A stretch of 20,969 nt of DNA from a virus. A program made the translations under genes and the position numbers. Below are positions 6,046 through 20,402 of the stretch, one piece after another (the stretch's first letter is position 1; every line of letters starts with the position of its first letter). Below the pieces are notes generated by a model that made no database searches, had not been told where the DNA came from, and saw nothing but the letters and a program-made list of their open reading frames with translations. The stretch spans positions 1 to 20,969 of IMG/VR virus record IMGVR_UViG_3300045972_000012. One strand, given 5' to 3'.

Positions 6046-7839
6046 CTAGTGAGCGATCTCGATAATCATGGCAGAGGCGAACATGGTCAGGGCGCCGGAG
6101 ATACGGGTTTCCATGAGGAACTCGTACTTATTGATCTTCAGGTCAAAGTTGTCAAAGAAGGCAATCTGCCCGCCCTTGTCGGCCCCTACGGTGTAATCGC
6201 CCATGTCGACGATGATGCCAATGAGGTCCAAGCGCACAGGAACCACGTCAGTCGAATCGCGGTGCAGTCCAGACATCAGAGGAACTTCGACGATTGCAGA
6301 GACACGAAGGTCCAGACAAAGTTCTTCCTTGGTCCGGTAGATCTTGTGGCCGAATTCGTCACGCAGAAGCATCATGTCGAGCACGACCTTGGCCGTGGTG
6401 AAGAAGGTCGGGGAACCGGAACCCAGGTAGTTCTCGCTGGCGCGGGTAATCTGGTCGATCATGCTGGTGATCTTTTCCGCGGGAGTCAGGGTGCCAGTGT
6501 AGACGATGCGAACCGGCAAAGCGTACAGCGGGTCTTCTTTGTAGATCGGGCGAAGCTTCTCTTCGTTGATCTTGTCGGGATCTTCGGCATCGCGACCGTC
6601 ACCGATCAGCATAGCGCGGGCAACTTCCTCATCCAGCAGGATGCGCATCGCGGACTTCTGCCACACGATGGCATCGAAACTGGTGATGTCCAGGTAGTCG
6701 TCACGATCCAGGCCACCCTTGATGTAAATGGTGGTCGGGCTGGTTTCGCGCTTGGCTGCCTTGAGGTACATTTCTTTCTTGATAGAGCCCTTGATGTACC
6801 CGCGGGCGCGGGCGGCTTCCATGGTCATGTCCGCGGTCACGGTCTTGATCTTGGAGTACGGGGAGTGACTGGCGCCATTAAAGACCGGGCTAACCCACTG
6901 GTTCTTCCGCTTGACCATCTGCGGCATAGTGTTCAGGGCCTGGGCGTCCGGCATCAGGACTTCAAAATTATCGATGCCGAAGTCAACGGCGTGCATCAAG
7001 ACGGCGTCTTTGAGGGAACCGAGCTTCTCAGCGTCGGCTTTCAGAGTGGCCCACTGGGCGGCGGTGATCGTGTTCTTGGCGGGATCGCCGGTGGTAGATT
7101 GATTGAATACGTTACGAGCCATTTCTGGGGATTCTCCTTCGGGTTCTGGTGTTTCTGAGTGAGCGGCGGTCTGATCTGCCTGATCCGTGGCAGTACCGGT
7201 AGTTACGGCCTCAACAGCGGCTTCGACTGAGGCAAAAAACAAATTCTTCTGAAGATCGTTCAGCGTGTCAAACACTTCCTGATATGACGGAGGTGTCGGA
7301 ATGTCGGCGAGAGTCAATGCCGCGGTTTCCGAAGTTGTATCGGCGTGCGCCATAGCGGGTTCAGGGGCTTCCCAAGCGGACGCAACAAGAGCGTCTTCAA
7401 CAAGTTCGTCGTCAGACCCGTCGGCATGTTGAACGTAGACATCATCGATGAAGGCGCCAGGGTTTTTACCGCTGACGGCCAAACTTACTTCGAGAATATC
7501 ACCGTGCATGACGTTGCCACGTTGCTGAGTTAGATTGTTGGCGAAAATGCTCAACGCCTTAATATCTTTGTGCTGAATGAGCGCCTTGGCAGTAACTGCG
7601 TTCGGGGTCTGGTTAAGGAACCCATATGTGTAAACGCCGTCGGTCTTATGCTCAAGGATTACATAGCCGTAGACATTGGTAGGACTGTCGTGCATGTGCT
7701 GCCAGACTAACGGAACCTGCTTCCCGTCGCAATGCTCGAAAGCTTTACTACGAATTGTACGGCCATCTCCGCAAAGTACGTCATACTTCGCAGCATAACC
7801 GGCGAAATCATAGCCGGTTGGCTTGACTTGGAGGGTCAT
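6046..7839 (-). CDS. Prohead protease-scaffold-major capsid fusion protein
   Basis: A 597-residue protein in three parts. Residues about 1-140 are an HK97-type prohead protease (peptidase family U35): likely catalytic His48 or His50 in VPLVWQHMHDSP, Ser97 in IKALSIFAN, and Glu117 in GDILEVSLAVSGKNPGAFID. Residues about 140-240 are low complexity, rich in Ala, Thr, Glu and Asp, and could serve as the scaffold or delta region. Residues 240-597 are an HK97-fold capsid protein (ITSFDAIVWQKSAMRILLDE, then FDNFDLKINKYEFLMETR near the end). The protease would trim the scaffold during head maturation. The ATG at 7839 has GGGAG upstream and overlaps the portal gene by 32 bases. An internal ATG at 7122 with its own AAGGAG may give free capsid. 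GC content appears to rise at that point. Confidence 0.92.
   Translation of the reverse strand: MTLQVKPTGYDFAGYAAKYDVLCGDGRTIRSKAFEHCDGKQVPLVWQHMHDSPTNVYGYVILEHKTDGVYTYGFLNQTPNAVTAKALIQHKDIKALSIFANNLTQQRGNVMHGDILEVSLAVSGKNPGAFIDDVYVQHADGSDDELVEDALVASAWEAPEPAMAHADTTSETAALTLADIPTPPSYQEVFDTLNDLQKNLFFASVEAAVEAVTTGTATDQADQTAAHSETPEPEGESPEMARNVFNQSTTGDPAKNTITAAQWATLKADAEKLGSLKDAVLMHAVDFGIDNFEVLMPDAQALNTMPQMVKRKNQWVSPVFNGASHSPYSKIKTVTADMTMEAARARGYIKGSIKKEMYLKAAKRETSPTTIYIKGGLDRDDYLDITSFDAIVWQKSAMRILLDEEVARAMLIGDGRDAEDPDKINEEKLRPIYKEDPLYALPVRIVYTGTLTPAEKITSMIDQITRASENYLGSGSPTFFTTAKVVLDMMLLRDEFGHKIYRTKEELCLDLRVSAIVEVPLMSGLHRDSTDVVPVRLDLIGIIVDMGDYTVGADKGGQIAFFDNFDLKINKYEFLMETRISGALTMFASAMIIEIAH
7120..7139 (-). 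promoter_or_regulatory. Internal ribosome binding site and start for free major capsid protein (358 residues)
   Basis: AAGGAG at 7139-7134 lies 11 bases before an in-frame ATG (7122-7120, codon 240 of the fusion), which begins MARNVFNQ. Translation from here would give a 358-residue protein covering just the capsid part. The spacing is longer than ideal. The start falls exactly where the low-complexity linker ends and where GC content rises by eye, which supports use of this start. An alternative is that capsid is released only by proteolytic cleavage near the same point. Confidence 0.5.
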
Positions 7840-13025: not shown

Positions 13026-13225
13026 TAGGAGACTTTCTTTTGCAAAGATGCGCGGACGAAGCAGTCTTTTGCTTCCAGCAATTTCCGCATACCAGCAGAT
13101 TTCTCTGGCCCGTCCGGGAGAGTTGTTTCCAACTCGTGAGCAAGGGCGGAAATCTTTTTCGATACTTCCTGCTGTTCAAAAGGAAGATGATCATACTCAA
13201 AATATTGAATTGTCGTGGAAGGCAT
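13025..13225 (-). CDS. Small helical-hairpin protein, candidate Acb2/Tad1-type cyclic-nucleotide sponge
   Basis: A 66-residue protein from ATG 13225, which overlaps the lysin stop as TAATG and has GAGG six bases upstream; a longer frame to 13252 would overlap the lysin further and has no better site. The sequence QYFEYDHLP, then two helices (EVSKKISALAHELETTLPDG, and PEKSAGMRKLLEAKDCFVRA) matches the layout I associate with the Acb2/Tad1 hairpin family: an aromatic strand, a helix, a short SREKS-like turn (here PEKSAG) and a K-LEEA-like helix. Acb2 proteins soak up cyclic nucleotide signals and block CBASS and some Thoeris defences. The protein lies in the late operon but is independent of its neighbours' functions. 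The resemblance is distant; it could be an unrelated small helical protein. Confidence 0.55.
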   Translation of the reverse strand: MPSTTIQYFEYDHLPFEQQEVSKKISALAHELETTLPDGPEKSAGMRKLLEAKDCFVRASLQKKVS

Positions 13226-15078
13226 TAGGCACCTCGGATTTTGGCTTGCCACAGTTGCAACGCCACGATAGCGGCAATTGCATCTGCGAGAGTGACAATT
13301 GTTCCAGGAACTACCACGGGAGGTTCAACAGGAGGAACAACAACTGGCGCACCTGTCCACTCAAGGAGTTTGTAAAGGTCTTCGGTTGTCGAATTGTGCA
13401 AAGACAGACTTACAGTGGAGGCGGCGCCCGACCCGTCGACAATCTCGCTAACCTTGAGAGACTCGTCCGAATACTCGTGACCAAACACACGTTCCTCAAA
13501 TCCAGCGAGAGGATACCATTTACTGGAACCGTAAGTCCACTGGAATGTTTCGAGAGGACGATACTGCCACAGTTCGGAAACGGTCGGGAAGGTCTTAGTA
13601 TTAACCTGCGTCCATTGAGCCAGGTGGAGATACAAGTAATCCTTGCAGTTTGAAATGAAGGTGTTCATCTCTCCGTCGACAGGATAGGAAGGATCTCCGA
13701 GAATCCAGGGGCCGGTGAAGAGAGCGATCTTTTTGGTCGGGATGTAGTTGCGTAGCATCAGCCAGCGCAAAGGCTGGAGGACGTGCTTGAGAGCAAGACC
13801 CATCCAGAGATCGATTTCCTTTTCACCCTTGAAACTGTCGACGCTGTTAACTCCAACTTCAAGCATTTCCAAAGGCAACCAAGACATCTGGCGACTGAAT
13901 AACCGGTCCCATGAGAAAGCTCCGTCGCACCAAGAAGACAAAAGATACGGAAGAACGAAATTGTCGCGAACGCCTTGTTCTTTCTCAGCATCAGTGGTCC
14001 CGGGATTGCAACTCTGGTTTTTAATCGTAGTGTCACCATATTGGCGAATACGATAGTACCCTGGTTTCAAGTTGAATCGCCCGATGACAGGAAGACCAGC
14101 AGCGTGGACGATACCGAGACGACCCTTGAAAGTTGGCTCGCTGTAGAGCGTCGGTTGATTGCCAAGGTTACGATCCATACCGCCCATGGGAAGGACGATT
14201 GCTTTGGCCTTGGTCGAGGTGAAGGTTGTTCCGGGAGTAAGGGCCTGATCTCCGCGATACGTTAAGATCTCGGCACGGTCCTTTTGAGGAACTGACTGTT
14301 TGTAAATGGTTGCCATTGGAACTCCTGTTAGTTCTTTCTTCACAGCTGCTAACATCTCTTCGAGAGTGCCTTTGTAAACAGCCCAGTCGTAATTAGCGTA
14401 TTGCGCAGGTGTGATCATAGTGCTTGAATACTGCCAAATGTCCCATTCAAGTTCTGTCCCAACTGGCATAAGAACTGTAAAGGGATCTGGAGGAGTGTTG
14501 TTAAGGTATTCCCATGTAACAACTCGCTTCCCTAAGCTTCCGTCAAAGTAGTGCGCCCAATAGAGCGGATACTTTGCAATCCATGAGACCATGTCCGGGG
14601 AATGCGTCTGAGTGAACCAGGTTGCTGAATAAATACCGATGACTAGATTAGGAAACTCGACTTGAAGTAGGTCGGCGATCTTCTTTGCGTGATTGCTTAT
14701 AACAATCGAGGAAAGATGTTTGACATCTGTCCACTTAATCTTTCCTGCAATAGCATCAAAGTATTCTGTCCAACTTGCCCAATACTGTTCGACGTCCAGC
14801 CAAACGAAATCGGGCTTGTGTTCCCGAATGTCGTTAGCAAACCAGGAAGCAAGATAGCCTGCATCACTTGTTGGATCGCACCAGAAGTATTCTCCGACGA
14901 TTGGAACACCAGCTTCTCTTGCAAGAAACATGTGGTTGTCTGTCGCGGTCATTTGATCGCCTTTAACGATCGCAAAACCGAGTCCGGCGTTGTCAATCAG
15001 TGCTTTCCACGGAACATTGACCTGATAACCAGAGACGTCAATGCCCTTCACTTTCTTTTTAGGTAGTAAGTCGAGCAT
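13225..15078 (-). CDS. Two-barrel GH25-type endolysin or virion lysin
   Basis: A 617-residue protein starting at ATG 15078, with AAAGGAG just upstream (the frame is open to 15213 but without a site there). Residues 10-240 form a GH25 muramidase barrel that hydrolyses peptidoglycan: Asp14 in VKGIDVSGYQ, Asp95 and Glu97 in FVWLDVEQYW, and WDIWQYSS at 212-219. From residue 255 a second, divergent barrel seems to repeat the pattern (AIVLPMGGMDRN, HAAGLPVIGRFNLKPG, IALFTGPWILGDPSY, YLYLHLAQWTQ) but with changed catalytic positions. A proline-rich linker (VVVPPVEPPVVVPG) leads to a short hydrophobic helix at the C-terminus. It is the first gene after a likely promoter, ahead of the packaging genes, and no holin is seen nearby. 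GH25 is sure; the second barrel is by my own comparison. Confidence 0.88.
   Translation of the reverse strand: MLDLLPKKKVKGIDVSGYQVNVPWKALIDNAGLGFAIVKGDQMTATDNHMFLAREAGVPIVGEYFWCDPTSDAGYLASWFANDIREHKPDFVWLDVEQYWASWTEYFDAIAGKIKWTDVKHLSSIVISNHAKKIADLLQVEFPNLVIGIYSATWFTQTHSPDMVSWIAKYPLYWAHYFDGSLGKRVVTWEYLNNTPPDPFTVLMPVGTELEWDIWQYSSTMITPAQYANYDWAVYKGTLEEMLAAVKKELTGVPMATIYKQSVPQKDRAEILTYRGDQALTPGTTFTSTKAKAIVLPMGGMDRNLGNQPTLYSEPTFKGRLGIVHAAGLPVIGRFNLKPGYYRIRQYGDTTIKNQSCNPGTTDAEKEQGVRDNFVLPYLLSSWCDGAFSWDRLFSRQMSWLPLEMLEVGVNSVDSFKGEKEIDLWMGLALKHVLQPLRWLMLRNYIPTKKIALFTGPWILGDPSYPVDGEMNTFISNCKDYLYLHLAQWTQVNTKTFPTVSELWQYRPLETFQWTYGSSKWYPLAGFEERVFGHEYSDESLKVSEIVDGSGAASTVSLSLHNSTTEDLYKLLEWTGAPVVVPPVEPPVVVPGTIVTLADAIAAIVALQLWQAKIRGA
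14314..14326 (-). promoter_or_regulatory. Internal ribosome binding site and start within the lysin gene
   Basis: AGGAG at 14326-14322 lies five bases before an in-frame ATG (14316-14314, codon 255, beginning MATIYKQSVPQ). It sits exactly between the GH25 barrel and the second domain. Translation from it would give a separate protein of 363 residues. Nested starts of this kind are known from several clostridial and enterococcal phage endolysins. Use of this site is inferred from spacing and position. Confidence 0.5.
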
Positions 15079-15116
15079 GTTTCTCCTTTCATTAGTGTTA
15101 TTACTTGTTTCCAGGA

Positions 15117-15160
15117 ACTTGTTAAGAGATTGTAGGACTTTCGGACCACTTGTTAAGTGG
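15117..15160 (-). promoter_or_regulatory. Operator-like repeats over the lysin promoter
   Basis: A perfect palindrome CCACTT-GTT-AAGTGG lies at 15146-15160. Part of it, ACTTGTTAAG on the plus strand, occurs again at 15117-15126, 31 bases away (about three helical turns). One copy covers the -35 box, and the other covers the expected transcription start. That is the arrangement of a repressor or activator binding two sites on one face of the DNA. No other copy was noticed in the window. The regulator is unknown. Confidence 0.5.
15129..15156 (-). promoter_or_regulatory. Sigma70-like promoter for the lysin and late genes
   Basis: On the minus strand TTAACA (15156-15151) and TACAAT (15134-15129) are separated by 16 bases, five of six matches to each consensus box. 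Transcription would begin near 15121, about 45 bases before the lysin ATG. A weaker second pair, TTAACA (15125-15120) and AATAAC (15102-15097) with 17 bases between, lies just downstream. It is the only convincing promoter found in the window and stands at the head of the late gene block. Confidence 0.55.
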
Positions 15161-15241
15161 CTCTTGAAAGGAGAAAGCGGGCACCAACCGACTTTTTTGT
15201 GAAAGTAGCCCACAATCCCTTAGAAAGTCCCTGGAAAATGT

Positions 15242-15313
15242 CCCCCCGGAGTTTTTTTGAGGGGCCAAGTGATCGATAGGGGGGGGCTTTTACGCGACAC
15301 CCCCCCAACTATC
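15242..15313 (-). other. GC-homopolymer region with strong, mutually exclusive hairpins
   Basis: This non-coding stretch just after the 89-residue gene holds C6 (15242-15247), T7, G4 (15261-15264), G8 (15279-15286) and C7 (15300-15306). GATAG plus seven G pairs with seven C plus CTATC (15275-15313, AA bulge, 13-base loop), giving a very stable hairpin. The C6 run could instead pair with the G8 run. There is no U-tract on the minus strand, so it is not a textbook terminator. A cos or packaging site, a transcription barrier and an attenuator are all possible. Confidence 0.55.
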
Positions 15314-15319
15314 CTCAAA

Positions 15320-15589
15320 TTATGCTTTTGCAGCAGCCATTTCGGCTTCAAACCCTGCCTCACTTACTGTTAAATAAATATTATTGGGGTCAAAAGAAAT
15401 AATATCATTAACAGCAAGAAGGTAGGCCTGGTCTTGATCAAGTTCTGACAGTTCGTCACTTGTCTTGATCACTCTTGCTAGGTAGGAGGGTGTATTATAA
15501 CCACATTGTCTATCAAAGACATACCATTCATCGTATTGAGTGAATGGATTATAAGGGTTATCAATAGTTGTTAACATTACATTTGGCAT
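15320..15589 (-). CDS. Conserved small phage protein, partner of the RNA-polymerase-like gene
   Basis: An 89-residue acidic protein starting at ATG 15589, six bases after AAGGGA. Its pattern (TTIDNPYNPFTQYDEWYVFD, then CGYNTPSYLARVIKTSDELS) is one I recognise as conserved in gut phages, where it also follows the large DFDGD-motif protein. There are no membrane segments, signal peptide or known catalytic residues. Its start lies ten bases after the polymerase-like stop, so the two are co-transcribed and probably work together, for example as a subunit or regulator; that is inference. The gene is more AT-rich than the structural genes. Its stop is followed within seven bases by the GC-rich hairpin region, which may end the operon. 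Confidence 0.72.
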   Translation of the reverse strand: MPNVMLTTIDNPYNPFTQYDEWYVFDRQCGYNTPSYLARVIKTSDELSELDQDQAYLLAVNDIISFDPNNIYLTVSEAGFEAEMAAAKA

Positions 15590-15599
15590 ATGACATCCC

Positions 15600-18323
15600 T
15601 TATTCTAAGAACTTCTTTAATGTAGTTGTACTAATCCCTAATGCTTCTGCTATCTCTGCTTTAGTAGCACCATTATTAAGCATAGAACGTGCTCTAGATT
15701 GTTGTCCTTTTGATAAAGATACAATAGTTCTAGGCATAGCAAGCTCTTTAATAGCATCTACATCACCATTCTGCAAGATTTGCATTAGTTTATGATCGCT
15801 AATAGCACCCGCTTGTATTGCTTCCCAACGCTTAGCGTCAATAGTAACCTTATCTTTATTAGCATCAAGCCTATAACGTGCTTCTTTTAGTGCTTGTCCA
15901 CGTATCTTCTTGATCTCCTCGGGTTCCATTGAGGGATTCTGGGCTTTCTTGTTTTCTACAATCTTACCGCAGAGTATTTGAGCATTTCTCTCATTAGGCT
16001 TCTTAATTAACGCCTTATTAAGTTCTGCTTTTAAAGATTTTACTTCTGCATCATAAGTTTTAGCAGCACTTGGCGAATAGTTAAGAAGAGGGGTCTCTAA
16101 ATACGATTTTCTTGCTTTGTTAGCAAGGGATTTCATCGTATTGGCATGATCGCCATAGACTTTTTCCATTTCAGTGCCACTAGATAACTCTAAAGCATCA
16201 GTGACATTCTCCATCTTTGAGATCTTGGTTGTACGAAAAACCACTTTATCTTTAGTGCCTCGTTTTCCATCTTCTCCTGGTATTCCCTTCTTTATATAAC
16301 TCCCGCCAACAACAGTATAGGCCTTTTCGCCAGTTATGCTGTTAATACCGCGCTTAATTTCTGGATGTAAGGGATCGTTTCTTGAAACTTCCCTGTATGG
16401 AGCACGATATTGACTTTTTGCCCTAGACACTAAAGTAGCAGCCCCATTTTTAGGGCCACCTTGATATTCTGTTTTTAAATCAGCAATACCAAAGTCTTTT
16501 GCAGCTTTGCTGTGATTGAGTCGGTGCTTCTTGGCATCAATAACAACCATGCTATACTTTACTGCCCTAGCAATTTTATCCCAACCAGCGCCTTGAATTG
16601 TCATATCTGTAATTAGATTAGACGCCTCGCCCATAAGAGTCTGCATACGCTGATTTTTCATGTCAGGAGCTTCTGGAGGAAGTTTGTAATGCTCTTTTGG
16701 GTCAAAACCCTGCAAATCAGGCAACGCTGCTCTTGTTTTAATCTGGCCGTTATGATTGGGGATGACAATGACGGCATCACCATCAAAATCCGCCCCAGAT
16801 AACCTGGCAGCAACTTTAGGATTGATCCCAACGAAATCTTCAGAGTTTTTGTAAATTCTTTTTGCCTCAGCATTATTGTTATTAACAATTAGCTCAGGAA
16901 TCTCGAAGGTCCCGCCGTGGGGATGCCTAATTAGAACAACAGGTTCGCCTGGTCTGTAACCAGGAGCATAAACTTCATTCTCTTTAAGAGACAACACAGG
17001 CAAAAGAACATGAGATCCTTGTCTAGGCAACGCAGCAGCCTTCAAATGAACGCTTTCTGAATCGCAAGAATCAGCAAACTTAGCCAACAAGAATTTCTTT
17101 ACTGTTGGATTAGTAAGAGCCATAATCTCATTGTATTCTTTTTCCTTAGCTATAGCTTTTGCCTTTAATTGCTGTTTTGCTAAGGGAGTCCTTTGTTTCG
17201 AAAGAACTTGGGACGACAAAGATTTCTGCCAATTTGCCCATCGTCCTTCTTCGTTAGGACTTTCTTCCGAACCAACAGTGTTTAAAGCAGAAAGATGCTC
17301 TTTTCCATCTTTTCCCTTATAAGTCATTTGGCGAATTGTACTACCAAACGGATTATCAGGATCAGACTTCATAGGTTTCATAACACTGTTGTCTTTGTCT
17401 CCTAGAATAGGAGTTCCTGCCTTTTTGCTGGTGTTGTAAATGATATCTATCCCAGGAGGCATATTATCGCCATGGATAGCCATGCCCTTCATGTAATGAG
17501 TTCCCTCTACAGCAACGCGAACTTGCATGTAGTTTAACTTCCCTAGAGAAAGATCTTCAACACCACGTCGAACTTCAATAACCCCATCTTTGTCTCCCCC
17601 ACCGTCATCCTTGTATTTAACAAGAATGCGTTTTAAGGAAACATTTGTCGGGGTCTTAATGGTTTCCCAGCTAAGTCCGCCGTCTAGGCTGTATTTTTTG
17701 CCTACCATGCGCATTTTCTCAAAGTTCTCGCGGAACTCTTTAGGAGTTACACCAGGGGCGCACAATGCTCTCAAACTGGTTGGTTTTCCAGTTCCTGCCT
17801 GAACAACCTTATGATAACGAAGAACATAGCCTTCTTTCTGCAATTTGTAAATTGAAGTATCGAGTTTTGTTCTTGTTATACCGAGTTGCATGTCAACCAT
17901 GGCGCCAACGTCAACATATCTGCTTTGGGCAACTTCATCCCTAAGAACCTGGCAGATTTTTTCTGTTGTCTGAGCTCGTTCAAGGAGAGCCGGACGCAAA
18001 AGAGATCTGGCAGAAGACTCGTTTGGCAATCCCATCACTTCTGCGATCGCAGTCGGAGAAAGGCCTTTATCTTTAAGATACAAAGCCTGCGATGCCTTAG
18101 CAAGTTTTTCCGCATCCCGTTCCAATGAGATTTGCTTACGAAGTTGTGTGGTCTTCATTCCTTGAGCCTTAGCTCTTTCGACAAGACCCAAACCTTCATT
18201 CTTTAAGACTTTATCAACACCACGGACGCTTGCACCGCTTTGCTCAGGTTTTTTCCCAGATCCCCATTTATAACGGCCAGATCTGTGGAGCACCCCAGTA
18301 TGGGCTAGATAATCGGTAGGCAT
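15600..18323 (-). CDS. Single-chain RNA-polymerase-like protein (DFDGD, double-psi barrel) with HTH segments
   Basis: A 907-residue protein from ATG 18323 behind GAGGAG. Residues 512-516 are DFDGD in RLSGADFDGDAVIV, the magnesium-binding motif of RNA polymerase beta-prime, phage SP-beta YonO and the QDE-1 family. About 45 residues earlier, PVVLIRHPHGG (Arg466, Pro468) resembles the beta-prime segment VLLNRAPTLH that precedes NADFDGD. The length is close to YonO, a known single-chain phage RNA polymerase. Residues 83-108 (LKDKGLSPTAIAEVMGLPN) and 870-907 (GATKAEIAEALGISTTTLKK) are helix-turn-helix segments, and 136-170 may be a winged helix. Residues 5-23 form an LAHTGV...YKWGSG motif like that of the virion-type protein at 10864-11910. 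It would transcribe phage genes, perhaps late ones. DNA- or RNA-dependence cannot be told from sequence. Confidence 0.8.
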   Translation of the reverse strand: MPTDYLAHTGVLHRSGRYKWGSGKKPEQSGASVRGVDKVLKNEGLGLVERAKAQGMKTTQLRKQISLERDAEKLAKASQALYLKDKGLSPTAIAEVMGLPNESSARSLLRPALLERAQTTEKICQVLRDEVAQSRYVDVGAMVDMQLGITRTKLDTSIYKLQKEGYVLRYHKVVQAGTGKPTSLRALCAPGVTPKEFRENFEKMRMVGKKYSLDGGLSWETIKTPTNVSLKRILVKYKDDGGGDKDGVIEVRRGVEDLSLGKLNYMQVRVAVEGTHYMKGMAIHGDNMPPGIDIIYNTSKKAGTPILGDKDNSVMKPMKSDPDNPFGSTIRQMTYKGKDGKEHLSALNTVGSEESPNEEGRWANWQKSLSSQVLSKQRTPLAKQQLKAKAIAKEKEYNEIMALTNPTVKKFLLAKFADSCDSESVHLKAAALPRQGSHVLLPVLSLKENEVYAPGYRPGEPVVLIRHPHGGTFEIPELIVNNNNAEAKRIYKNSEDFVGINPKVAARLSGADFDGDAVIVIPNHNGQIKTRAALPDLQGFDPKEHYKLPPEAPDMKNQRMQTLMGEASNLITDMTIQGAGWDKIARAVKYSMVVIDAKKHRLNHSKAAKDFGIADLKTEYQGGPKNGAATLVSRAKSQYRAPYREVSRNDPLHPEIKRGINSITGEKAYTVVGGSYIKKGIPGEDGKRGTKDKVVFRTTKISKMENVTDALELSSGTEMEKVYGDHANTMKSLANKARKSYLETPLLNYSPSAAKTYDAEVKSLKAELNKALIKKPNERNAQILCGKIVENKKAQNPSMEPEEIKKIRGQALKEARYRLDANKDKVTIDAKRWEAIQAGAISDHKLMQILQNGDVDAIKELAMPRTIVSLSKGQQSRARSMLNNGATKAEIAEALGISTTTLKKFLE

Positions 18324-18326
18324 AGT

Positions 18327-18905
18327 CTACTCCTCGGGATTAGTATTCCACTTCTCTAAACTCTGGTCGAATTCAATGATTTTGTCCATGATTGCTTGAA
18401 TATCTTCAAACGCCGGATTTTCAGTAACTACTGCGTTGTTCTGATAAATGCGAAGTTCGATTGAACTATCTCTGGGCCTTAGGCCATATTCGAGATAAAA
18501 GAACGCCGCATAGATTTCAAGTTGTTCCATCCAGACGGGAGAAACACCGGTTTTCAAATCGTGAATTCTAAGAATGGGGCCTATCTTCTTTTCTTCTCGA
18601 AAAGAGATAGCATCAGCAGTGCCAAAGGCATTATAGGAAACAAACAGCGGTTGCTCTGGTGTCATCCTAAATCCAATGGCATCGTTCACGTATTGGTTAA
18701 TGGACAATTTGGAATTCGGCAATCTTTGCTTTTGCTTAATGCACATACAGGCCAAGGCGTGCAAGTCAGTACCACGCTGGGTATTCTGAGCCTTTGTGTA
18801 AGCAACCTTAAGTCTTTCCAAATCCCAGTTCAACCAAAAGTGTTTACTTGGTGCAAGCATGAACGCGTGCTTACCAAGAAGATCTGAGTGCTGTCGAAAG
18901 TTCAC
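18327..18905 (-). CDS. RecB/Cas4-like PD-(D/E)XK exonuclease
   Basis: A 192-residue nuclease starting with GTG at 18905; GGAGG six bases upstream decides the start. The motifs run in the order expected for the RecB/Cas4-type family: His49 in RGTDLHALA, Asp98 in FGTADAIS, Asp116-Leu-Lys118 in LRIHDLKTG, and Gln128/Tyr132 in WMEQLEIYAA. The N-terminal LLGKHAFMLAPSKHFWLNW is typical of the phage members. No cysteine cluster for an iron-sulphur centre is seen, so it is Cas4-like only in the nuclease core. It probably processes DNA ends during phage replication or recombination, together with the adjoining VRR-NUC nuclease, helicase and ssDNA-binding protein. It overlaps the upstream gene by 35 bases. 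Confidence 0.85.
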   Translation of the reverse strand: MNFRQHSDLLGKHAFMLAPSKHFWLNWDLERLKVAYTKAQNTQRGTDLHALACMCIKQKQRLPNSKLSINQYVNDAIGFRMTPEQPLFVSYNAFGTADAISFREEKKIGPILRIHDLKTGVSPVWMEQLEIYAAFFYLEYGLRPRDSSIELRIYQNNAVVTENPAFEDIQAIMDKIIEFDQSLEKWNTNPEE

Positions 18906-19170
18906 TTAAAACCTCCTCTTGGTTTTCAGGATAGATGAAAGCAGCAAACGACATGTCATTGCAGACAGTGACATAGTGATCTTGGTTGGATTGATGTGGA
19001 GCATTGTACGAGTCTTTTGCTTCCAGAAGTGCCCACCGATCATTAAATAAAATAATAAGATCGGGGATTCCTTGAAGATAGTTGGCGTCGTTCTTTAGGA
19101 TTATACAACCCGGAAACATTTTTCGTAAGCGTCGTATAAGCTTACTCTTGAAGTCACCTTCAGGTGTCAT
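18871..19170 (-). CDS. VRR-NUC domain nuclease
   Basis: A 99-residue protein of the VRR-NUC type, a small restriction-fold nuclease often found beside phage helicases and thought to cut structured or replication-intermediate DNA. Seen directly: Glu4 or nearby acidic residue in TPEGDFKSK, Asp37 in GIPDLIILF, Glu50-Ala-Lys52 in ALLEAKDSY, and HQSNQDHYV after it, the standard PD...ExK plus Q pattern. I chose ATG 19170, which has GGAG six to seven bases upstream; the longer frame from 19218 would begin inside an intrinsic terminator. The gene lies directly after that terminator, so it is expressed by readthrough, antitermination or not at all in some phases. The 3' end overlaps the RecB-like gene. 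Confidence 0.87.
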   Translation of the reverse strand: MTPEGDFKSKLIRRLRKMFPGCIILKNDANYLQGIPDLIILFNDRWALLEAKDSYNAPHQSNQDHYVTVCNDMSFAAFIYPENQEEVLSELSTALRSSW

Positions 19171-19181
19171 TTTGATCTCCG

Positions 19182-19216
19182 AAAAAAGGAGAGAGAAGAT
19201 AGTCATCCTCTCTCTC
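19182..19216 (-). terminator. Intrinsic terminator between helicase and VRR-NUC nuclease
   Basis: On the minus strand GAGAGAGAGGAT pairs with ATCTTCTCTCTC (12 base pairs, one G-U) around a GACT loop, followed by C and six T. This is a classical rho-independent terminator. It lies 14 bases after the helicase stop and about 11 bases before the next ATG, between genes that otherwise look like one operon. It therefore probably divides the operon or is a control point. Confidence 0.85.
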
Positions 19217-19229
19217 ATACTAGCATAAG

Positions 19230-20402
19230 TTATTTACGCGTCTCGAACGAACGCTCGTTGAAATTCTTTTTCCCGTTAAGAGCTCGGGCAATAGATCTAT
19301 CTATCAACGATGAGGACTTGAAAGTGTAATAGTACAAATTTGCAAATGGACTATTCAATCTGTCAATCCTTCCTGCCGCTTGTTTCATTACGCGATAACT
19401 ATAGCTTTGCGAGTAGAACACTACGCAGTTGGTTTCGATGCAATTCCATCCCTCAGCACCAGAATTATACTGGACAAGATACACCCATCTCTTAGAAGAT
19501 GGAACGGGCTCGTGTTTGTGCCCATTATGCTCAGCGACTTCGAAGTCTGGTTTGGATTTCAACTCGCGCAGAATATCTAACTCATAGTTAAAATTGTAGA
19601 AGACAATTATGCGGTCGTGCTTTGCGAATAGAATGTTCAACGCTTCGAATCTACTCGGGTCGCTATTGGCAACCTTCCTCATTGTGCTACAATATTCCGA
19701 CACGTCTTTGATCGGCATATTGGTGAATGGGTTCCAACGGTTCTTTACGACCAATCGCATTTTTATCTCATCGTGGTCTACATGGACGATCTCATAGTTG
19801 CTAACGCTGGGCTTTATATATTCCATATCGACCACTAATTCTTCACGAATTAATCTTAGCCTATCTTCCTCGACATAGTGGTCTATCTTGGGATACTTGG
19901 TAAACCCTTTATAGACAACGTGCTCTCGCTGGAACTCTGCTTTAGAGTTGTAAAACCGATTAGCAACCATTACGGGAATATAATCCATCCAGGTGTCACC
20001 AGGAGTGGCGCTTAGTAAGATCCAGTTGTTGTTCTTTGCTATTTTGTAGAAGGATCTTACCCATGAGCCTGAGCCAACAAGACGCTGCTCGTCAAAAAGA
20101 AAAAAGCAGTTTTTTACTTTAGTATACTTCCTTATATTATTCCACGAGTCGACCACCAGGCTCGGGGCATTATCGCCAATCTCCAGCATAGCATGTTCTT
20201 TTTTCCAGTCGCCAGTATCACGCTTTGCTGCTGTCGTGATGACATAAAGATCTTTTGGTTTCTTCATGTCATCACACTCAACGTGGTAGTAATACCATAA
20301 GGAAGTCAAAGTCTTCCCAGAACCGACCCCACCGCATAGGATAGAGCCGGTTCTGAGTTTTGTTGCTGCTAGAAGTTGGTGGTCGTAAAGCTTAAGCTCC
20401 AC
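19230..20402 (-). CDS. SF2 (SNF2-like) DNA helicase
   Basis: A 390-residue helicase if it starts at GTG 20402 (MELKLYDHQ, a usual Q-motif-like start). The frame is open to 20585, but an ATG there would overlap the ssDNA-binding gene by about 190 bases and add unrelated sequence. Motifs in order: Walker A GGVGSGKT (24-31), DEQR in place of DEAH (104-107), SATP (131-134), and QAAGRIDR (341-348), the arginine-rich motif VI. Together these define superfamily 2, close to phage SNF2-like helicases that unwind or remodel DNA with ATP. No clear ribosome binding site precedes the GTG; an 11-base overlap with the upstream gene suggests translational coupling. The terminator at 19182-19216 follows its stop. 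Confidence 0.88.
   Translation of the reverse strand: MELKLYDHQLLAATKLRTGSILCGGVGSGKTLTSLWYYYHVECDDMKKPKDLYVITTAAKRDTGDWKKEHAMLEIGDNAPSLVVDSWNNIRKYTKVKNCFFLFDEQRLVGSGSWVRSFYKIAKNNNWILLSATPGDTWMDYIPVMVANRFYNSKAEFQREHVVYKGFTKYPKIDHYVEEDRLRLIREELVVDMEYIKPSVSNYEIVHVDHDEIKMRLVVKNRWNPFTNMPIKDVSEYCSTMRKVANSDPSRFEALNILFAKHDRIIVFYNFNYELDILRELKSKPDFEVAEHNGHKHEPVPSSKRWVYLVQYNSGAEGWNCIETNCVVFYSQSYSYRVMKQAAGRIDRLNSPFANLYYYTFKSSSLIDRSIARALNGKKNFNERSFETRK

Follow-up and report, generated by a model that had tools for sequence, protein, structure and literature searches.

A predicted single-chain two-barrel RNA polymerase and an associated promoter-like motif in phages of Actinobacteria and Firmicutes

The stretch of DNA presented here (the window, a 20,969-base IMG/VR fragment that holds the right end and the late genes of a phage genome) raises the question of whether its phage makes RNA with a one-polypeptide polymerase of its own and, if so, which genes such an enzyme would read and from what signal.

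Predicted fold and family of the polymerase

The open reading frame at issue lies on the minus strand at exactly the position given in the first-pass annotation, starts with ATG behind a GGAG-type ribosome site and has 907 codons for 907 amino acids. The motif that had first suggested a polymerase was confirmed as D512-F513-D514-G515-D516 inside RLSGADFDGDAVIV, as was PVVLIRHPHGG ahead of it, with VVLIRHPHGG about 45-50 residues earlier.

15600-18323, minus strand: polymerase gene, a predicted single-chain two-barrel RNA polymerase of phrog_4291 (open reading frame, profile, AlphaFold2, fold comparison)
16776-16790, minus strand: DFDGD metal-binding motif, residues 512-516 (sequence, alignment of relatives)

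A full-length match to phrog_4291 (hmmscan against PHROGs; 1045 bits, E 0, residues 3-906 on 9-905 of 909) makes the gene, on its sequence, a member of an already catalogued family that bears the name 'RNA-dependent RNA polymerase'. D512, D514, D516, G515, R466, P468 and H469, together with K279, K300, K599 and H600, are invariant in an alignment of 99 relatives that were partly fetched with patterns including GADFDGD, and DFDGD is also kept in 10 named phages recovered by plain tblastn. The ratio dN/dS is 0.015-0.11 in eight close pairs of relatives; given this and the strength of the profile match, the occurrence of DFDGD is far from chance.

The family is widespread and has been described under several names. 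Our tblastn search returned 251 phage records, 249 of them with at least 80% coverage and those listed at 35-48% identity, from phages of Arthrobacter, Gordonia, Streptomyces, Curtobacterium, Microbacterium, Rhodococcus and Lactococcus as well as uncultured phages, and IMG/VR holds more than 500 relatives, with at least 132 genome contigs carrying one, many of them labelled Clostridia. Full-length homologues within this identity range include gp94 of Arthrobacter phage Mudcat, gp85 of Gordonia phage OhMyWard and orf75 of Lactococcus phage 1706, whose neighbours (VRR-Nuc, exonuclease, phrog_4303, genome end) are those of the window gene; we find no essential difference from them, except that the family name implies an RNA template where DNA is the more likely one. 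Records label the homologues mostly as helix-turn-helix (HTH) DNA-binding or structural proteins and otherwise as tail fiber or as RNA-dependent RNA polymerase, and the phrase 'RNA polymerase' is absent from the paper on Arthrobacter phages Circum and Mudcat (PMC5513430). In the human saliva siphovirus contig89 (KF594186) the homologue, gp106, is labelled 'tail fiber protein', a misannotation. No polymerase family of Pfam or NCBIfam matches the window protein above cutoff.

The AlphaFold2 model, built on the alignment of 99 relatives, has a mean pLDDT of 89.3 and a pTM of 0.85 and contains two double-psi barrels, the first of them based on strands at residues 248-350.

17274-17651, minus strand: first double-psi barrel, beta-like, about residues 225-350, with invariant K279-G280 (model, alignment, invariants)
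16749-17036, minus strand: second double-psi barrel, beta-prime-like, about residues 430-525, with R466, P468, H469 and DFDGD (model, fold alignment)
16461-16655, minus strand: conserved helices after the barrel, about residues 557-621, MG..SNLITDMT...VIDA.KH (model, alignment)

In this model DFDGD falls inside the second barrel, the placement on which the first-pass annotation had staked its proposal, and the paired barrels that it had called for are predicted at about residues 225-350 and 430-525. The second barrel region aligns with beta-prime-type subunits at a Z of ~10 in VIA-align, which also places the barrel of the p97 N-domain on residues 354-533, and K279 and K300, candidates for the catalytic basic residues of the beta-like barrel, are invariant at the level of the alignment. 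The helices at residues 557-621 would take the position of the bridge helix and trigger loop, a role suggested by their collinearity with YonO and RNA-dependent RNA polymerases. Foldseek against the PDB ranked QDE-1 best (E 1.8e-9), followed by phage P74 gp62 (E 1.6e-5) and plant RDR2, and VIA-align gave a Z of 13.8 for QDE-1, with 371 residues aligned within 226-745, and 12.4 for phage P32 gp64. Two barrels like those of a solved member, with DxDxD in the beta-prime-like one, characterise the two-barrel class and are found in the predicted model, which together with the fold matches supports a one-polypeptide RNA polymerase of this class, whose basic architecture the polymerases of all cells share. 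Searches of PDB sequences with the single protein or with profiles gave no significant polymerase match; the one polymerase to appear was the tail-fused P23-45 enzyme, around DFDGD at E ~0.5.

Among solved structures, the eukaryotic RNAi polymerases QDE-1 and RDR2 are the closest in fold, sharing both barrels and the following helices at a Z of ~13, but they are only ~11-16% identical, function in RNAi and have no match for the HTH ends of the window protein. The RNA polymerases of the P23-45 type (solved P74 gp62 and P32 gp64; tail-fused gp96), one of which is a virion enzyme (PMC10770324), are likewise single-chain phage two-barrel proteins, with Z scores of 11.6-12.4 and a local match around DFDGD. 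They differ in being shorter chains of 592-595 amino acids or fused to the tape measure, and their fold alignments span only residues 210-742 of the window protein, so that here too the HTH ends are unmatched.

17994-18227, minus strand: N-terminal tandem HTHs, about residues 33-56 and 76-110 (models, HTH_23 in relatives)
17742-17993, minus strand: winged helix, about residues 111-194 (AlphaFold2, VIA-align)
15606-15716, minus strand: C-terminal HTH, about residues 870-906 (Pfam, PHROGs profile)

The HTH segments noted near both ends are real. HTH_23 lies above the Pfam cutoff at the C-terminus of the window protein and matches the N-terminal region in 59 of 73 relatives, and all 11 named family members examined have HTH matches. 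A separate AlphaFold2 model of the N-terminal 187 residues (pLDDT 92.8) contains two helical units that resemble HTHs, followed by a winged helix; the winged-helix call rests on this model and on VIA-align, in which winged-helix proteins make up nearly all of the best 50 rows for residues ~111-194 (best Z 8.5). Foldseek with the N-terminal model gave no match at E <0.001.

YonO of Bacillus phage SPbeta, to which the protein had been likened, belongs to phrog_8308 (1220 bits), a family that the window protein matches only at residues 442-524 (E 1.8e-5, 24 bits) and not over its full length. Profile-profile comparison with the YonO family yielded a 190-column collinear alignment, of low formal probability and to be taken together with the phrog_8308 match, through the R.PH, D.DGD and bridge-helix regions; the family profile against a single YonO sequence gave nothing useful. 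Judged by sequence, phrog_4291 and the YonO family are distant sisters, with the window protein outside the latter. Both are single chains with a collinear R.PH and D.DGD region and following helices, encoded just upstream of late genes, whereas the window protein ends in an HTH and lacks the C-terminal CxxC...CxxC four-cysteine motif that all 30 YonO proteins examined share. A Pfam scan of 30 YonO-family proteins found no HTH family common to them, unlike phrog_4291 members. A relationship to QDE-1 by fold and to YonO by active-site sequence is accordingly upheld, as is the suggestion of DNA-binding domains that YonO lacks; the length of about 905 residues attributed to YonO was mistaken, the recorded protein having 839 amino acids.

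Gene neighbourhood and the cos joint

The polymerase gene sits in a conserved order of helicase, VRR-Nuc, exonuclease, polymerase and phrog_4303, followed by HNH and TerL. Across about 171 loci the exonuclease lies upstream in 167 and phrog_4303 downstream in 166, and VRR-Nuc is present in 163.

18871-19218, minus strand: VRR-Nuc-type endonuclease gene, phrog_93, first in the cassette (profile, neighbourhood)
18327-18905, minus strand: exonuclease-like gene, phrog_3953, Cas4-type in relatives, same cassette (profile, neighbourhood)
15320-15589, minus strand: small acidic protein, phrog_4303, pI ~4.05 (profile, neighbourhood)
15214-15319, minus strand: non-coding joint with a G7/C7 hairpin, resembling right and left genome ends of relatives joined at cos (by-eye comparison)

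The polymerase is basic (pI 9.6), and the acidic phrog_4303 protein is a possible partner for it, with an inhibitor or a packaging factor as alternatives. In the linear genomes of relatives the polymerase gene is the last but one and the genome ends directly after phrog_4303; this, and the resemblance of the joint to fused ends when compared by eye, indicates that the window appears to have been assembled across the cos site and that what the first-pass annotation had read as an early/late gene boundary is the cos junction. Its description holds for the joined genome and fails for the linear virion genomes of relatives, which end between the polymerase and the late genes. The joint itself contains a conserved G-run/C-run hairpin, GGGGGGGTGTCGCGTAAAAGCCCCCCC, which may serve in terminase recognition or as a terminator.

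Two minus-strand genes beyond the joint deserve mention in their own right. The first after the cos joint (13225-15213) encodes a protein of 662 residues, with a GH25 lysozyme domain at the N-terminus and a long remainder towards the C-terminus that no Pfam family matches, and at 6046-7839 a head maturation protease and the capsid protein are apparently fused in a single gene (phrog_3270), as has been described for Arthrobacter cluster AM/AU phages (PMC5513430).

A promoter-like motif in phages that carry the gene

Family phages of Streptomyces, Arthrobacter, Gordonia, Rhodococcus and Lactococcus have in common a motif, TCGCA-N4-TTACA-N5-TATAAT-GAGA, that is repeated in each of five named phages, where it is among the top over-represented words of each genome and contains the most over-represented 10-mers. 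The strict pattern TTACA-N5-TATART occurs 78 times in 30 contigs that carry the polymerase, where the reversed pattern occurs 3 times, and in nine phages with the gene it has 48 matches on the sense strand and 1 on the opposite strand. Counting against a strict link, Bilo and MediumFry have one strict match each, and Curtobacterium phage Eevee, which carries the gene, has none. Six same-host phages without the polymerase gene have no match, and the motif does not belong to YonO phages, 30 of which (3.9 Mb) gave 8 matches against ~27 for the reversed control. The converse test agrees, since 28 of 38 long contigs picked by the motif contain phrog_4291, compared with 1 of 20 picked by the reversed motif (Fisher p 6e-7). 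Two of the 28 (G065 and G087) have partial phrog_4291 matches and may be truncated contigs or carry stand-alone HTH relatives. The association between polymerase family and motif across phages of Actinobacteria and Firmicutes is thus tight, and its description here is new as far as our partial coverage of the literature extends. Because the named phages share the motif though their hosts span two phyla, a phage-encoded reader is its simplest cause.

The form of the motif was examined further in 106 metagenomic copies. TCGCA, whose positions lie outside the search pattern, is 89-97% conserved in them, TGn occurs in 1 of the 106, and TTGACA was matched no better than in shuffled upstream sequence, so that these copies show no -35 box.

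In the named phages the motif precedes small early and middle genes just to the right of the tail genes, on the coding strand, and a weight matrix trained on family phages likewise matched the coding strand only. The matrix found none in the late-gene regions of Bilo (1-23 kb), Kardesai (1-24 kb) and 1706 (1-24 kb) and one low-scoring match (2.9) in the first 16 kb of Poco6; one strict match of P078, inside the tape-measure gene, has no support from it. A second location is upstream of the VRR-exonuclease-polymerase cassette, where 63 of 116 relatives have a sense match, mostly 866-952 bp before the polymerase start, compared with 1 of 116 in antisense and 3 of 55 downstream of the polymerase. 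The claim that the enzyme transcribes late genes as YonO does thus finds no backing in the motif, which precedes early and middle genes and the cassette and was not found in the late regions examined.

19210-19241, minus strand: candidate cassette promoter ACGCG-TAAA-TAACT-TATGC-TAGTAT-GAGAGA (best match in the window, at 19222, 899 bp before the polymerase start)

No strict copy of the motif occurs in the window, whose sequence covers just the right end of the genome and the late genes, and a generic sigma-70 scan of it was uninformative. The copy listed is a degenerate one (TAGTAT, TAACT) whose score exceeds random maxima only a little, and we put it forward as a candidate promoter for its position, which matches that in relatives, rather than for its score.

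A proposed transcription system and its alternatives

We consider it probable that the protein is a one-chain DNA-dependent RNA polymerase that reads a motif of its own and transcribes the early and middle genes together with its own cassette. The model predicts a fold with three catalytic aspartates flanked by HTH and winged-helix ends. We infer that the polymerase itself recognises the motif, the tandem HTH and winged-helix domains reading its boxes directly and without sigma; neighbouring boxes begin 9-10 bp apart, close to one turn of the helix, a spacing suited to several HTHs on one face of the DNA. The enzyme would then transcribe the small early and middle genes and the VRR-exonuclease-polymerase cassette. 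Since the motif is missing from the late regions examined, late genes would be read otherwise, either by the host's polymerase or by transcription that begins at the polymerase cassette and continues over the joined cos ends. Early genes and cassette both seem motif-dependent and the enzyme would therefore be needed at the start, so that some polymerase may enter with the virion, or weak reading by the host may begin the cycle. Virion entry is the less certain element and leans on a GenBank label, that of orf75 in Lactococcus phage 1706 as 'structural protein', which reportedly came from LC-MS/MS of virions by Garneau and colleagues in 2008. In the same record orf62 and orf71 are also called 'structural protein' outside the structural module and are possible virion-carried early proteins. 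The fullest form of the proposal, a virion-packaged, sigma-free, single-chain two-barrel polymerase that uses its own three-box promoter through fused HTH and winged-helix domains, sets off early transcription and that of its own cassette, and occurs together with its conserved promoter in phages of two bacterial phyla, is one that we advance tentatively and think somewhat less likely to be right than wrong.

The same association could arise if the host's RNA polymerase read the motif with the help of a DNA-binding activator from the phage or through a replaced sigma, leaving the two-barrel enzyme some other job. TATAAT is the sigma-70 -10 box, phages of the group carry other HTH proteins, and 1706 lists a 'putative positive regulator of sigma'; yet the motif has neither a -35 nor a TGn element, is used by phages whose hosts belong to two phyla, and is missing from phages of the same hosts that lack the gene, and we hold this reading to be unlikely. 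A late polymerase in the manner of YonO, made early from a host promoter and then transcribing the adjoining late operon, draws on the position of its distant relative just upstream of the SPbeta late genes (PMC5467207) and on the adjacency of gene and late genes in the joined genome. Against it, the tracking motif is absent from the late regions examined and rare downstream of the gene (3 of 55), and the cos end lies between gene and late operon in linear genomes, and we regard such a role as quite unlikely.

The template is far more likely to be DNA than RNA, judging from YonO, which shows the same Pfam RdRP similarity and is a proven DNA-dependent RNA polymerase (PMC5467207). An RNA-dependent RNA polymerase or primase, as the PHROG and RefSeq name implies, would agree with the eukaryotic RdRPs being the closest solved folds and with the Pfam RdRP model matching 8 of 11 phrog_4291 members, but that model also matches 15 of 30 YonO-family proteins, and DNA-binding domains in a double-stranded DNA phage favour a DNA template; the reading seems to us very improbable, and the 'RNA-dependent' of the database name presumably derives from similarity to RNAi polymerases. 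Least probable, and barely credible, is a catalytically dead two-barrel protein with only a DNA-binding or structural virion role, which the labels 'HTH DNA-binding', 'structural protein' and 'tail fiber protein' would suit and which the invariant aspartates and barrel residues, under strong purifying selection, contradict.

Single-chain relatives of cellular RNA polymerase are used in arguments on the origin of transcription, and the promoter of YonO was left undetermined (PMC5467207), where the phrog_4291 family now offers a concrete promoter hypothesis and ample material in at least 249 phage records, including cultured phages of Arthrobacter, Gordonia, Streptomyces and Lactococcus. If our reading is true, the labels 'HTH DNA-binding protein', 'structural protein', 'tail fiber' and 'RNA-dependent RNA polymerase' are due for correction, and the family would give a direct route to how a two-barrel polymerase initiates without sigma and might provide an orthogonal, compact expression system. 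The polymerase probably recognises the motif on its own, and if it does, these phages carry a self-contained and directly testable transcription system.
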